From the IMG/VR virus record IMGVR_UViG_3300008451_000424, positions 1 through 37,578 of that record: a stretch of DNA of 37,578 nucleotides. One strand, given 5' to 3'. This DNA comes from a virus. A program made the position numbers and the translations under genes. Position 1 is the stretch's first letter. Each line of letters opens with the position of its first letter. The notes under the pieces are model-generated. The model saw nothing but the letters and a program-made list of their open reading frames with translations. It was not told the origin of the DNA and did not search any database. Below, in pieces: positions 5,349 through 37,578 of this stretch.

Positions 5349-6482
5349 TTATTGAAGTTTAGAGAGGGCTGCGGTGAGTTGCTGCCCGATTTGTAAAACC
5401 GCAGGTCTTGGATCAGATTCCTCAACCAACGTACTACCACTGCTTACTGCTACTACTAATTCTTTTGGTAATTCTAAGTTATATTTTTTTAATACCTTTT
5501 CCGCTTGTGCTGGCGAAATAACTTTTTCAACGGTAGCTTCTTTTCCTAACCGCATTTCTAATAATTTAGCTTTTGCCTGATCTTCGTCGACCCATTGGCG
5601 AATAGCGCGTTTAGCTACCAATTTAAAGCCTGGTACTGGTTTACCCGCATCTAACACTTGGTGCGCTAACCCACGCACATCAGCAATCCATTGCTCAAGC
5701 ATATCGGCTTTTTTAAGATAATCAGCGATCTGCTCTACGTTAAGGATATCGAGTTGAGCGTGTAGGGCGCGGTCAGCAAGACCTGTCATCTTAGGGCAAG
5801 TAGGCTTGGCGGCGCACCAACGGCAATGATCGCCTGCGTTCAATGGTGCGTCAGGCATTTGGCTGATCTTGACCGCCATCGCTAGCTCTTGCTCAAACGC
5901 TTTAATACGCTTTGTTGTAGTAACCCAACGCTTTACAGATGGCGGTTGCACGATGATGCACTCGATCTCGTCGCACTCGTCAAACACCCATTGCACTTCA
6001 GGCGTACGCATAGCCGCGGCCGCGTAGAACATCAGTTGAGGATTATCGTCAGCAGGGACAGGGACGCCAGACCCAAACTTCCAATCGAGAATAAAGGCTC
6101 TTTTACCGATACGACCAAGTAAATCTGTACTACCGAATACGCCAGGAAGAAAATCACCGAACCCGACACGCGTTTCTGTTGCATATTCCATTTCCTTATT
6201 AGGGTCGATGTCATCCAAAGCTCTAAGCGCAGGGTAAACCTTTTCGTCAATAAGCTCTTGGGTTAATTTGATACCTTCATATTCCATGCCAGCAAATGAC
6301 TCAGGCGTTTGGTTTGTAGTCAGGATCAAGTCCATGACGTTATGAAGCAGGGTGCCTTCGTCAGCGTATTTGCTAGAAGGTTTAGGGGGCATCTTGGCGC
6401 ACAAGGCTACAGAGCCAGGGCAACCGATGACACGTTTGGCAGTTGAACCGCCTACTACGCTGGAGTGTTTCGTGAGTTCCAT
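5349..6482 (-). CDS. PD-(D/E)XK exonuclease with Fe-S cysteines (DUF2800/Cas4-RecB type)
   Basis: A 377-residue nuclease of the Cas4/RecB-like superfamily, probably a DNA-end-resecting enzyme for phage recombination or replication. The catalytic motifs are in order: an Glu near 103, D120 in GSTDLL, D133-W-K135 (ILDWKFG) and the QLMFYA motif (Q149). The C-terminal cysteines C220, C223 and C229 (HCRWCAAKPTC), together with an N-terminal GCPGSVALC (C21/C28), are the usual iron-sulphur ligand set. It is the first gene of the leftward replication operon. The ATG at 6482 follows AAAGGAATC, and transcription likely starts in the divergent promoter region just upstream. The family assignment is from motifs and neighbours. 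Confidence 0.9.
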   Translation of the reverse strand: MELTKHSSVVGGSTAKRVIGCPGSVALCAKMPPKPSSKYADEGTLLHNVMDLILTTNQTPESFAGMEYEGIKLTQELIDEKVYPALRALDDIDPNKEMEYATETRVGFGDFLPGVFGSTDLLGRIGKRAFILDWKFGSGVPVPADDNPQLMFYAAAAMRTPEVQWVFDECDEIECIIVQPPSVKRWVTTTKRIKAFEQELAMAVKISQMPDAPLNAGDHCRWCAAKPTCPKMTGLADRALHAQLDILNVEQIADYLKKADMLEQWIADVRGLAHQVLDAGKPVPGFKLVAKRAIRQWVDEDQAKAKLLEMRLGKEATVEKVISPAQAEKVLKKYNLELPKELVVAVSSGSTLVEESDPRPAVLQIGQQLTAALSKLQ

Positions 6483-8935: not shown

Positions 8936-9059
8936 ACCAGTTGGATATATCAATGAAAATGGCGTTTTCTTTAAAGAATTAACACCAAACCCTGCATTTA
9001 ACGCAACGCTTACACCCGTTTACACCGCGGAGCAATTAGGCGTTAAGGAGCCAAAATGA
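8928..9059 (+). CDS. Small hypothetical protein, 43 aa
   Basis: Encodes MIKPVGYINENGVFFKELTP followed by a Pro/Thr-rich stretch and VYTAEQLGVKEPK. The ATG lies behind CAGGAGAAACAA, a good ribosome binding site. Small proteins of the type 'PVGYIxxNGVF...' with a C-terminal VYTAEQL are common in phage early regions and have no assigned function. Its stop overlaps the start of the secreted repeat protein by four bases, which supports the reading frame. Confidence 0.65.
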   Translation: MIKPVGYINENGVFFKELTPNPAFNATLTPVYTAEQLGVKEPK

Positions 9060-9394
9060 AATTCATATTACAAAGTGTTGCATTATTAGCCGCGTTTTTA
9101 GCAGGCGCCATTTGGGAAAACCAAGCGTATGCCCAAACAACTTACCTATACGGCCCACAAGGCCAAAGCTTAGGTACCATACAGCAGTCAGGCAACGCGC
9201 AGTATTTTTATGGCCCACAAGGTCAAAGTCTAGGTAATGCTCAACAATCAGGCAATACAACTTATGTTTATGGCCCACAAGGTCAAGCTGTTGGCACTGT
9301 AATGGCACCGCTGCCTGTTTATCGTGCGGCGCCTGTGTATACGCCTAATCCATCGTCTATGACGCCTATGTACGACTCGATCTTTGGTAGATGA
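9056..9394 (+). CDS. Secreted protein with three YGPQGQ repeats, 112 aa
   Basis: An N-terminal signal peptide (MKFILQSVALLAAFLAGAIW, probable cleavage after AYA near residue 26) is followed by three imperfect 20-residue repeats, each centred on Y-x-YGPQGQ-x-x-G and separated by QQSGN. The repeats run from about residue 28 to 84. A Pro-rich tail follows, ending PMYDSIFGR. The protein should therefore reach the periplasm or the cell envelope. Such repeats occur in proteobacterial envelope proteins, so the gene may have been taken from a host. It is unusual in a lytic phage replication arm and could modify the infected cell surface. No enzymatic motif is visible. Strongly coupled to both neighbours (ATGA overlaps). 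Confidence 0.85.
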   Translation: MKFILQSVALLAAFLAGAIWENQAYAQTTYLYGPQGQSLGTIQQSGNAQYFYGPQGQSLGNAQQSGNTTYVYGPQGQAVGTVMAPLPVYRAAPVYTPNPSSMTPMYDSIFGR

Positions 9395-34834: not shown

Positions 34835-35208
34835 GGGTCAGATTGTCAAATTGTCACGCGGATTTAATCGGCGGGCGCGGAGGCTGGCGGGCTTATGGGT
34901 CAAATTGTCATTTGCCTAGATATAGGTCAAATTGTCATTTGTATTTTGTTGACGGCTTTTTCCTTTTTGCGTGGGAATTCCCCGAGCAGCGGGCGCGAAA
35001 ATATAGGTCAAATTGTCAAATTGTCACGCCAAATAAATCGCTGGCTTATAACATTCCCCGTAAAAACCTATACAAATATACAAATTCATAGTATCTATCT
35101 AAAAAAATGACAATTTGACCCATATCAGCCTTTAAGCTTGATTCTATATAGCTCCGATATGGGTCAAATCGCCCCAAAACTTTGACCCATGTTTTGACAA
35201 TTTGACCT
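34835..35208. repeat. Iteron array: six full and two partial copies of a 14-bp repeat
   Basis: Consensus RGGTCARATTGTCA, usually preceded by TAT. Forward copies: 34835-34848, 34897-34910, 34924-34937 and 35005-35018. Inverted copies: 35108-35121 and 35195-35208. Partial: GGGTCAAATC at 35161-35170 and an inverted GGGTCAAA at 35181-35188. The first and fourth forward copies carry an extra half (TCAAATTGTCACGC), making longer composite sites. The array lies in the 745-bp gene-free stretch 34583-35327. It is a candidate replication origin or multi-site regulator binding region. Confidence 0.9.
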
Positions 35209-35244: not shown

Positions 35245-35273
35245 TTGCATTGTGTAAATAAATCCTTTACACT
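35245..35273 (+). promoter_or_regulatory. Candidate promoter with palindromic operator for the unknown operon
   Basis: TTGCAT (35245-35250) and TACACT (35268-35273) are 17 bases apart. Between them and overlapping the -10 box is GTGTAAA (35252-35258), a 7-bp spacer and TTTACAC (35266-35272), a perfect inverted repeat. A dimeric repressor bound here would block the promoter. The leader then runs about 50 bases to the first start codon. Confidence 0.55.
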
Positions 35274-35280
35274 AAATACA

Positions 35281-35301
35281 TCGGGGCAATTTTGCCGCCG
35301 A
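35281..35301 (+). other. Leader hairpin after the operon promoter
   Basis: TCGG-GGCAA, a short loop and TTGCC-G-CCGA form a 9-bp stem with one bulge in the 5' leader of the rightward operon. There is no T-run, so it is not a terminator. It may protect the mRNA or affect translation. Confidence 0.4.
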
Positions 35302-35327
35302 TTTAGTCAAATAAAGGAAATAAAACG

Positions 35328-35435
35328 ATGCGTACTCTCACAAAACAACCTACAAAACTGGATATTTTAGGCGCTTGTATTCTCGGCGCTATCATCGGCG
35401 CAATGATCGCCGTCGCTATTTTGGGAGGGTTTTAA
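35328..35435 (+). CDS. Small membrane protein, 35 aa
   Basis: Encodes MRTLTKQPTKLDILGACILG followed by AIIGAMIAVAILGGF, a short basic N-terminus and one hydrophobic, Gly/Ala-rich helix (residues 12-35) with GxxxG-type spacing. An AAAGGA site lies upstream, and the gene is the first after the promoter. Helices of this kind often self-associate in the membrane. It could be an early host-takeover or superinfection-exclusion peptide, but that is inference from its position beside the control region. Confidence 0.65.
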   Translation: MRTLTKQPTKLDILGACILGAIIGAMIAVAILGGF

Positions 35436-35436
35436 T

Positions 35437-36306
35437 ATGAAAACCAAATATTCAAGCAATAGCGAATTAGTGCATATTTGGGCCAATAATTCAGACCCTA
35501 CTATTAATAAAAGCGCAAATTCGATGTCATGCCAATTTGACCGCTTGTTTTCTTATAGCACTTGTATTGCTGAAATTGTAGGCAATACAGTAATACTTAA
35601 TACTTGCTCATATAGCAATACAACAAGTAAGCATCAGAGTTATGCGAGAGGCGCCGTTAGGCACCTGGATACTATTCGCTTGCCTTTTTCTGGCTATAAC
35701 CATTCAACACTTGTGCTAGGCCAGGATAGTTTTAACCGCGTCGCCGAAGTATGCCTAAAGGATGTCGGCCATTACTTAGTAAAGGCTAGCCGCTCACGTA
35801 AACACGCCGATTCATACAAGGCCGAAGCTTTAAGCATTGTAGAAAATCTCAACAAATACGCCAATTTATTAGATTTAGAATTTTCGGCGCCTGATTTATC
35901 AGAGCATCAAGCGGCCGCGCTTCGGGCGGATAAAGTGCGAAAAGAGCAAGATAAGATTTGCAAGGCCGAAAAGATCAAACAACAAGCCGAAGATTTAGTG
36001 AGATGGCAAGCCGGCGAAGATGTACGCACTTATTTTGAGCGCACGGCTTTACGTATTAAAGGCGATCAAGTACAAACAAGCCGCGGCGCGAATATCCCCG
36101 TGGCCGATGCAATCAAATTGTGGCCTTTATTGTTGCGCGTTAAAAACAGCGGAAAAACGATGGAGGCCGGCTTACATTCGATCAACTTAGGCCCTTATCG
36201 CTTCAATTCATTCGATGGCCAGACTCTCATTGTCGGGTGCCATTCGATCGCGTGGGATCAACTGGCCTTGATGGCCGAGCAATTAAACCTAACAGAAAAG
36301 GCGTAA
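35437..36306 (+). CDS. Unknown phage protein, 289 aa
   Basis: I recognise no family. The ATG at 35437 follows GGGAGGG. The N-terminal 110 residues contain several Cys and His (MSCQFDRLFSYSTCIAEIVG; YARGAVRHLDTIRLPFSGYN). Residues 120-200 are a Lys/Ala/Glu coiled-coil-like helix (SRSRKHADSYKAEALSIVEN; DKVRKEQDKICKAEKIKQQA). The C-terminal 80 residues look like a compact mixed domain (RIKGDQVQTSRGANIPVADA; SINLGPYRFNSFDGQTLIVG; IAWDQLALMAEQLNLTEKA). Second gene of the operon. Rich in GGCC and in GCC/GCG Ala codons compared with the late genes. Confidence 0.82.
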   Translation: MKTKYSSNSELVHIWANNSDPTINKSANSMSCQFDRLFSYSTCIAEIVGNTVILNTCSYSNTTSKHQSYARGAVRHLDTIRLPFSGYNHSTLVLGQDSFNRVAEVCLKDVGHYLVKASRSRKHADSYKAEALSIVENLNKYANLLDLEFSAPDLSEHQAAALRADKVRKEQDKICKAEKIKQQAEDLVRWQAGEDVRTYFERTALRIKGDQVQTSRGANIPVADAIKLWPLLLRVKNSGKTMEAGLHSINLGPYRFNSFDGQTLIVGCHSIAWDQLALMAEQLNLTEKA

Positions 36307-36311
36307 ACAAA

Positions 36312-37064
36312 ATGAATAAGATCAATTTTTACCTAGAATCACGCCTTGCGGCCGTTAAAAAACGCGCCGCGGAATGGTCAAAACATAATCCAGATGGCGC
36401 TTATAAAAGCGCGCTAGATCATCAGGTCAAATATAAGCGCAAGGGATGGATTAAATATGATTCGGCCAATGATTATGACGATGAGGGCAATTTGCGGCTT
36501 TATTCGCTCGATGGCTATGACGCGACGGCCCTAATAGATCTAGGCCGCCGTTATTTTGACTATACCGGCTATTATGCCGATAGTTTTCAGATGGAATTAG
36601 TAAAACCCTACATTGTGAAGATCAAGGCCGGCAAAAAAGGCGTATTTATCGCGCCCGCGATTGCGTACAGTGATTGCGATATAGCCACGATTTACTTTAG
36701 CCGTGGCCAGTTTGCCCCGAATGATTCGCAAGATATCGAGCATGATCGCGCGGCAATGGAGGCCGCTAGAATCGCCGATTCGCTAGCCGATAGCGCGGCC
36801 CGCGATAGCCGAGAGGCCGACGCGCAATTTCAAGCGGAGCAGGAGGCCGAGCAATTAGCCGAAGATATTAAGGACGCCCGCCAGACGGCCCGCGGCTTGA
36901 TCGCGGCTATCAAGGCCCAACGCCGCGCGGGAATTGATCTAGGCGGAGCTATATGCGACGCGTTGACCGATAAGCTTAGGGAATACCGGCGCCAGATTCT
37001 CAAGGCCCGGGAGCGCCGCGAAGCGCTAAAAGAAAACTATTGGCTAGCCGTGGAGGGTTATTAA
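36312..37064 (+). CDS. Unknown phage protein with C-terminal coiled coil, 250 aa
   Basis: The start is ATG 36312, five bases after the preceding gene, behind AAAAGG. A longer open frame upstream overlaps that gene and was rejected. The N-terminal 120 residues are basic and Tyr-rich (LAAVKKRAAEWSKHNPDGAY; KGWIKYDSANDYDDEGNLRL; YFDYTGYYADSFQMELVKPY). Residues 150-245 form a long Ala/Arg/Glu coiled coil (READAQFQAEQEAEQLAEDI; LREYRRQILKARERREALKE). No enzyme motif seen. Ala codons are almost all GCC or GCG, unlike the late operon, suggesting a different origin. Function unknown. Confidence 0.82.
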   Translation: MNKINFYLESRLAAVKKRAAEWSKHNPDGAYKSALDHQVKYKRKGWIKYDSANDYDDEGNLRLYSLDGYDATALIDLGRRYFDYTGYYADSFQMELVKPYIVKIKAGKKGVFIAPAIAYSDCDIATIYFSRGQFAPNDSQDIEHDRAAMEAARIADSLADSAARDSREADAQFQAEQEAEQLAEDIKDARQTARGLIAAIKAQRRAGIDLGGAICDALTDKLREYRRQILKARERREALKENYWLAVEGY

Positions 37065-37065
37065 T

Positions 37066-37200
37066 ATGTATCGCGTCATTTATACAACTTATCTAGGCGG
37101 CATCGAATCGCAAGCTTGCCGCCGCTTCAGTAATGCTCACAAGGCTAAAAGCTTCGCCCGCTTAGTTAACGGGACAGTAGAAAAGAGGGTCAAATTATGA
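37066..37200 (+). CDS. Small basic protein, 44 aa
   Basis: Encodes MYRVIYTTYLGGIESQACRR, FSNAHKAKSFARLVNG and ends EKRVKL. A short beta-strand is followed by a basic helix. It begins two bases after the previous stop, behind GGAGGG. Its stop overlaps the next ATG by four bases. A small regulatory or nucleic-acid-binding protein is possible, unproven. Confidence 0.62.
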   Translation: MYRVIYTTYLGGIESQACRRFSNAHKAKSFARLVNGTVEKRVKL

Positions 37201-37259
37201 TTGCGGCGCTATTTTTGGCCGCCTTGGCGGCTTTGTTTGTTTTAATTTGGGAGCTATAG
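37197..37259 (+). CDS. Tiny membrane peptide, 20 aa
   Basis: Encodes MIAALFLAALAALFVLIWEL, one hydrophobic helix. The ATG overlaps the previous stop (ATGA) with GAGGG eight bases upstream, which is the only support beyond its length. Last gene of the operon, followed by palindromes and a terminator. It could be a membrane-active peptide or a chance frame. Confidence 0.5.
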   Translation: MIAALFLAALAALFVLIWEL

Positions 37260-37283: not shown

Positions 37284-37308
37284 GGCCCGCTATACGCGGG
37301 CCTTTTTT
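37284..37308 (+). terminator. Strong intrinsic terminator, possibly bidirectional
   Basis: GGCCCGC (37284-37290) and GCGGGCC (37296-37302) with a 5-nt loop are followed by TTTTTT. Just before it AGCGCT is repeated as a second small palindrome (37258-37273). It lies one base before the end of the convergent primase-helicase gene. In the leftward direction the hairpin is followed by AATTTATTTG, so it may stop both operons. Confidence 0.9.
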
Positions 37309-37309
37309 A

Positions 37310-37578
37310 TTACTTGACGCGTACCAATTGGGGCGCCGGGGTTGATTCTACGGCCCGCCTTAGCTCTGATTTTTTCAAGCTTTCATACACGCTAGGCGCG
37401 GCGAATATATGCTTTTTACTTGGGTAATCATGCGACGCAAGGCGCCCGCAATCAATCCAGCCCGCTTCTTTAAGCGCGTGTAAGAGTGCAGCCTGTGGCA
37501 CCTTTACGCCGCTAGGCGCGACACCGGCCAGACGATCGCATAATGAATGGAATGGCGAACCAATAACGCCCGGCGCGA
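37310..37578 (-). CDS. Primase-helicase, C-terminal 89 codons (continuation of the gene at 2035-1)
   Basis: Open from the right window edge to a stop at 37310. Read after base 1 of the left edge, the codon at the join is TTC (Phe), and the protein continues APGVIGSPFHSLCDRLAG, then VPQAALLHALKEAGW (winged-helix-like) and DYPSKKHIFAAPSV, ending PAPQLVRVK. This is a fitting C-terminal domain for a D5/SF3-type phage helicase. The frame join is exact: 2035 plus 269 bases make 768 codons with the stop. Not an independent gene. The GTG inside it at 37501 is not a start. Confidence 0.9.
   Translation of the reverse strand, partial: APGVIGSPFHSLCDRLAGVAPSGVKVPQAALLHALKEAGWIDCGRLASHDYPSKKHIFAAPSVYESLKKSELRRAVESTPAPQLVRVK

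Follow-up and report, generated by a model that had tools for sequence, protein, structure and literature searches.

A five-gene operon flanked by iterons and a primase gene is a candidate early cassette for host interaction in a podovirus with a circular map

We describe a compact operon at positions 35328-37259 of the window, the whole 37578-base record IMGVR_UViG_3300008451_000424, which comes from a freshwater lake phage. As read from the sequence, it consists of five plus-strand genes encoding 35, 289, 250, 44 and 20 aa, which overlap or are separated by gaps of 1–5 nt. In our best explanation, which we hold to be evenly balanced between right and wrong, the operon is a dispensable cassette for interaction with the host, expressed early by a podovirus whose map is circular and which has P22-type relatives; cassettes of this type are already known as a kind. 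The first-pass annotation had described a tight five-gene unit with three tiny ORFs, two of them with a membrane helix. Its coordinates proved exact. It had also called both larger proteins unknown: they are indeed uncharacterised, but each belongs to a named and widespread phage family (PHROG 7247 and PHROG 8188, respectively).

A 767-aa primase ORF on the minus strand continues in frame across the ends of the record (2-2035 and 37310-37576, in frame from base 2 to 37576), which is therefore circular or circularly permuted. This ORF matches the PHROG primase, RepB_primase and DUF5906. The operon is flanked by an iteron array on the 5′ side and by the primase gene on the 3′ side, in agreement with its earlier placement between iterons and replication arm. 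Judged by terminase, the closest public relatives are MW202483 (72% identical) and DSL-LC05 (65%), both metagenome-assembled freshwater podoviruses; the latter carries a P22-type morphogenesis gene set.

ORF1 (35328-35435, +) encodes a 35-aa peptide with one transmembrane helix and the motif LGACxxGAxxG...GGF, and is kept directly upstream of ORF2 in relatives. ORF2 (35437-36306, +; 289 aa) and ORF3 (36312-37064, +; 250 aa) are followed by ORF4 (37066-37200, +), which has a GGAGG ribosome-binding site and specifies a basic protein of 44 aa (pI 10.4), and by ORF5 (37197-37259, +), a 20-aa hydrophobic peptide with one transmembrane helix, whose start overlaps the ORF4 stop (ATGA). Homologues back the coding status of ORF1, ORF2 and ORF3, and gene order is kept in the uncultivated relatives L005, L008, L013, L015 and others. 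Our searches found no homologue of ORF4, which like ORF1 is too short for searching whole collections, or of ORF5. The evidence for both consists of ribosome-binding sites and the ATGA overlap; these two may not be genes. At another locus (L007 9895-10204) residues 1-68 of ORF2 match those in the window with 100% identity, yet the adjoining ORF1 is very different, so that the ORF1/ORF2 junction there is either a recombination boundary or an assembly mosaic.

Upstream of the operon, a weak sigma-70-like promoter (TTGCAT-17-TACACT; 35245-35276, +) is overlapped by the dyad GTGTAAA-N7-TTTACAC at about 35253-35273. For the dyad core GTAAA-N7-TTTAC, 0.003 copies are expected per 730 bp, the length of the upstream region. 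A set of 31 distinct loci (325 kb) contains 8 copies, and 7 of these lie upstream of the operon at a distance of no more than 1.2 kb. The arms covary, being GTGTAAA/TTTACAC in the window and ATGTAAA/TTTACAT in L005. Dyad and control region are conserved among relatives, and we predict that the dyad serves as an operator. Of the palindromic operator-promoter proposed initially, the dyad stood; the promoter hexamers are weak, and a consensus scan, in which promoter-like sites were no commoner than in shuffles, did not list the operon promoter. The 5′ UTR contains a hairpin (ATCGGGGCAATTTTGCCGCCGAT; 35279-35302, +), and the leader at 35265-35330 folds with −15.6 kcal/mol (z −3.2). At the other end of the operon, at about 37284-37309 (+), the predicted intrinsic terminator GGCCCGC-TATAC-GCGGGCC-TTTTTT fits its previous description as strong: it folds with −17.7 kcal/mol (z −4.0), which 0 of 200 shuffles equalled. 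Counted by consensus scan, terminators showed no excess.

Positions 34838-35207, between the gene for the terminase small subunit and the operon, hold about 8 iteron copies (core TCAAATTGTCA / GGTCAAATTGTCA; six on the plus strand, two on the minus strand) against 0.0 expected, which confirms the array. Nearly the same iteron spacing recurs in L003 and L005, despite an ORF2 identity of only about 40%. In L008, L004, L045 and L113 one iteron copy (TGACAATTTRACC) is located in the leader, 55–69 bp downstream of the operator, suggesting that an iteron-binding factor also controls the operon. The main rival to our reading builds on these features. According to it, the operon is devoted to replication or origin control as the regulatory partner of an iteron origin, with iteron binding or primase loading as the task of ORF2 or ORF3. 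The operon adjoins both iterons and primase, iteron spacing is conserved together with it, a copy is present in the leader of the four loci just named, and the end domains of ORF2 are basic. Yet neither ORF2 nor ORF3 matches a replication family, sister phages with a primase gene have neither protein, and most phages in which ORF2 or ORF3 has a relative are without iterons of the window type. We consider replication control unlikely, while leaving it a real minority chance.

By profile search, ORF2 belongs to PHROG 7247 (E 4.9e-34; two stretches, the best covering 119-287), as do 20/20 of its aligned homologues. The AlphaFold2 model (pLDDT 91.8) consists of two small alpha/beta domains linked by helices 96-191. 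The coiled-coil character ascribed to the protein earlier needs correction: with a domain at either end of a helical stalk, ORF2 is not simply a coiled coil. As a first guess from the pI values of the end domains (8.9 and 9.4), the target of ORF2 would be a nucleic acid or a nucleic-acid enzyme. Among 59 diverse members H13, S39, T63, R206, T214 and G267-C268-H269 are invariant. The elements H13-x-W, SY(G), TSKH, TSxGA and GCHxI (the last in the C-terminal domain) are common to ORF2 and to phiCbK gp008, RHEph01 gp004 and ADP64_000068 of Achromobacter phage phiAxp-2, and short uncharacterised genes surround these relatives and ORF2 alike. Compared with them, ORF2 is short, lacks the GxHF of SYGxHF and is preceded by a transmembrane peptide. 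Its predicted structure matches BFVD proteins, some of them named DUF8033, with no Pfam match at the sequence level. The N-terminal part has a predicted fold like that of DUF8033 proteins from Arthrobacter phage Rings and an uncultured member of Caudovirales (A0A6J5SGW8); with the latter the likeness spans most of the chain (TM 0.60). Whereas many DUF8033-named proteins are single domains of ~90–120 aa, ORF2 has an added stalk and C-terminal domain.

ORF3, a beta domain followed by a long helical hairpin, matches phrog_8188 (8.3e-13) and phrog_27363 (8.4e-7). The family core GWYxD...RGxxxxLPHGR is found in phiCbK-like, Achromobacter, Burkholderia, Curvibacter and Aeromonas phages. With members of PHROG 8188, 27363 and 33651 (phiCbK gp005, AXY1_14, Nazgul10 and BcepSauron_043) ORF3 has the GWYxD...AAxxAD core in common, but it lacks LPHGR, and its helical tail is longer than in the Casjensviridae members. 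One protein of this superfamily, BcepSauron_043 (L130 3881-4570), is labelled a transposase; the label is probably wrong.

Homology of either large protein to a structural or replication family had been set in advance as the test of the takeover proposal. Profile, sequence and structure searches found no such family and no defence family. Specifically, comparisons with Pfam, NCBIfam, PADLOC and PDB sequences yielded nothing significant for ORF2 or ORF3. The best Foldseek hits in the PDB were to ricin A chain (E 0.18, TM 0.15) and were rejected as noise; VIA-align rows mostly span helical stalks, and no function was inferred from them. We found no mention of DUF8033 or of the PHROG numbers of the two proteins in the open-access papers searched. 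These results also bear on the reading of ORF2 and ORF3 as virion or assembly proteins. Some homologues do adjoin terminase genes; against this, no structural family is matched, the operon lies on the strand opposite to the morphogenesis block of the window phage, and neither gp5 nor gp8 is among the phiCbK virion proteins (PMC3556154, Table 2). A virion or assembly role is extremely improbable.

A tblastn search located the ORF2 family in 17 phage records, covering Autographiviridae, Casjensviridae, Dolichocephalovirinae, Brevundimonas siphophages, Pseudomonas phage PMBT3 and one crAss-like phage, and IMG/VR holds 88 loci. It is rare in bacteria and archaea, with 3 loci in 84,980 species genomes by a pattern search that was not exhaustive; it is absent from 14 control genomes and has no match in the plasmid collection. 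This distribution speaks against a phage-borne defence or toxin-antitoxin system directed at other elements, a reading to which the self-contained operon with operator and terminator would lend itself. Moreover, PADLOC gave nothing significant (best E 0.025, a CARF model, for ORF2; 0.11 and 0.52 for ORF3). We regard this alternative as very unlikely, and the first-pass suggestion of a defence system is not supported.

The host-interaction reading draws mainly on where homologues are located. In the T7-like phage RHEph01 an ORF2 homologue is found at the left end, upstream of the RNA polymerase gene, and Limnohabitans phage YIMV22061 has one in a comparable block. In the phiCbK-like phages CcrBL10, Karma and phiCbK homologues fall within the 10-kb terminal repeats; in Brevundimonas phage Delta the homologue is gene 7, upstream of terminase, and Achromobacter phages also carry the family. 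Left-end and terminal-repeat positions are expressed first in T7-, T5- and SPO1-like phages. The occurrence of homologues at early positions in unrelated phages suggests that both larger proteins probably help in taking over or disarming the host. The early position asserted in the initial annotation is borne out to the extent that homologues concentrate in regions presumed to be early, in lytic phages that are unrelated; those of PMBT3 and csAssE-Sib are inside long blocks of uncharacterised genes with no clear early position. A role in takeover or counter-defence is plausible from position. By analogy from general knowledge, the cassette may be likened to the T5 first-step-transfer DNA and the SPO1 host-takeover module, which likewise combine small uncharacterised proteins with early placement; the window differs in having a single small operon, for which takeover is a proposal.

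Gene content varies at this fixed site among related phages, the pattern expected of an accessory cassette. ORF1 and ORF3 are kept in L009-L012, where an unrelated 203-aa gene takes the place of ORF2 (in L009, at 5713-6321, the protein begins MKTYNREFFIPAN). L003 and L005 contain two additional small genes ahead of ORF1. At the equivalent place MW202483 and DSL-LC05 carry unrelated plus-strand cassettes; that of MW202483 includes a cytosine DNA methyltransferase (L141 4342-5319). A small conserved gene with the motif NDxNGNPRY stands between the positions of ORF2 and ORF3 in L008 (9588-9902), L013 (9591-9914), L009 (6353-6637) and L015 (7891-8169).

The two families meet within about 1.5 kb in four unrelated lineages: they are neighbours in AXY1, phiAxp-2 and two uncultivated phages, and stand three genes apart in phiCbK and Karma. 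However, ORF3 was not seen in 23 of 25 further records that carry ORF2, and full-length ORF2 is present in 0 of 19 ORF3-carrying or sister records (several of the records are fragments). An obligate two-component system was rejected because most phages have only one of the two, and the 'pair' postulated earlier is not upheld; the sequences point instead to a common niche rather than one machine.

Single-transmembrane mini-ORFs directly upstream of ORF2 relatives were detected in 9/49 divergent clusters versus 3/311 control genes, and in 6/46 clusters (P-value 2e-4) when the window's group was collapsed. This wider signal appears once the ribosome-binding-site filter is relaxed. Under the strict filter only the window's own phage group is left, so we treat the association across phages as a lead, suggestive only. 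It is nevertheless relevant to membrane superinfection exclusion, whereby ORF1 and ORF5 in the inner membrane would cooperate with cytoplasmic ORF2 or ORF3 to block DNA entry of competing phages. The conservation of ORF1 directly upstream of ORF2, the mini-ORF counts and a one-transmembrane peptide near the start of the DSL-LC05 cassette are in its favour; but no such peptide was detected beside most ORF2 relatives, ORF1 and ORF3 persist without ORF2 in L009-L012, and no known exclusion protein is matched. Exclusion therefore seems improbable to us. In a further speculative reading, with a small chance of being right, the single-helix peptide and the PHROG 7247/DUF8033 protein may form a new widespread effector module directed at a host target conserved from Proteobacteria to Bacteroidota, the soluble protein being tethered or triggered at the inner membrane by the peptide.

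If the operon is an early host-interaction cassette, its promoter would fire soon after entry, using host RNA polymerase, and a DNA-binding regulator would shut it via the dyad and perhaps also via the neighbouring iterons. Using the basic, conserved domains at the two ends of its helical stalk, ORF2 would bind and then redirect or block a host macromolecule. ORF3 would act at this early stage as well, on a different target, and the site of ORF1 and ORF5 action would be the inner membrane. PHROG 7247 and PHROG 8188 proteins, with function so far unassigned, are found repeatedly in T7-like, Casjensviridae, phiCbK-like and crAss-like phages, often at positions where first-used genes are typically located; if our inference is true, one experiment would annotate a gene family across many phages. 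The operon offers a compact unit for testing, and cultured carriers of the family are phiCbK with Caulobacter crescentus, RHEph01 with Rhizobium and phiAxp-2 with Achromobacter; an infection time course of phiCbK has been published (PMC10688885, S3 Table).

Elsewhere in the window, near the lysis genes, positions 9056-9394 (+) encode a protein of 112 aa that starts with a sequence resembling a signal peptide and contains YGPQGQ-type repeats in tandem.
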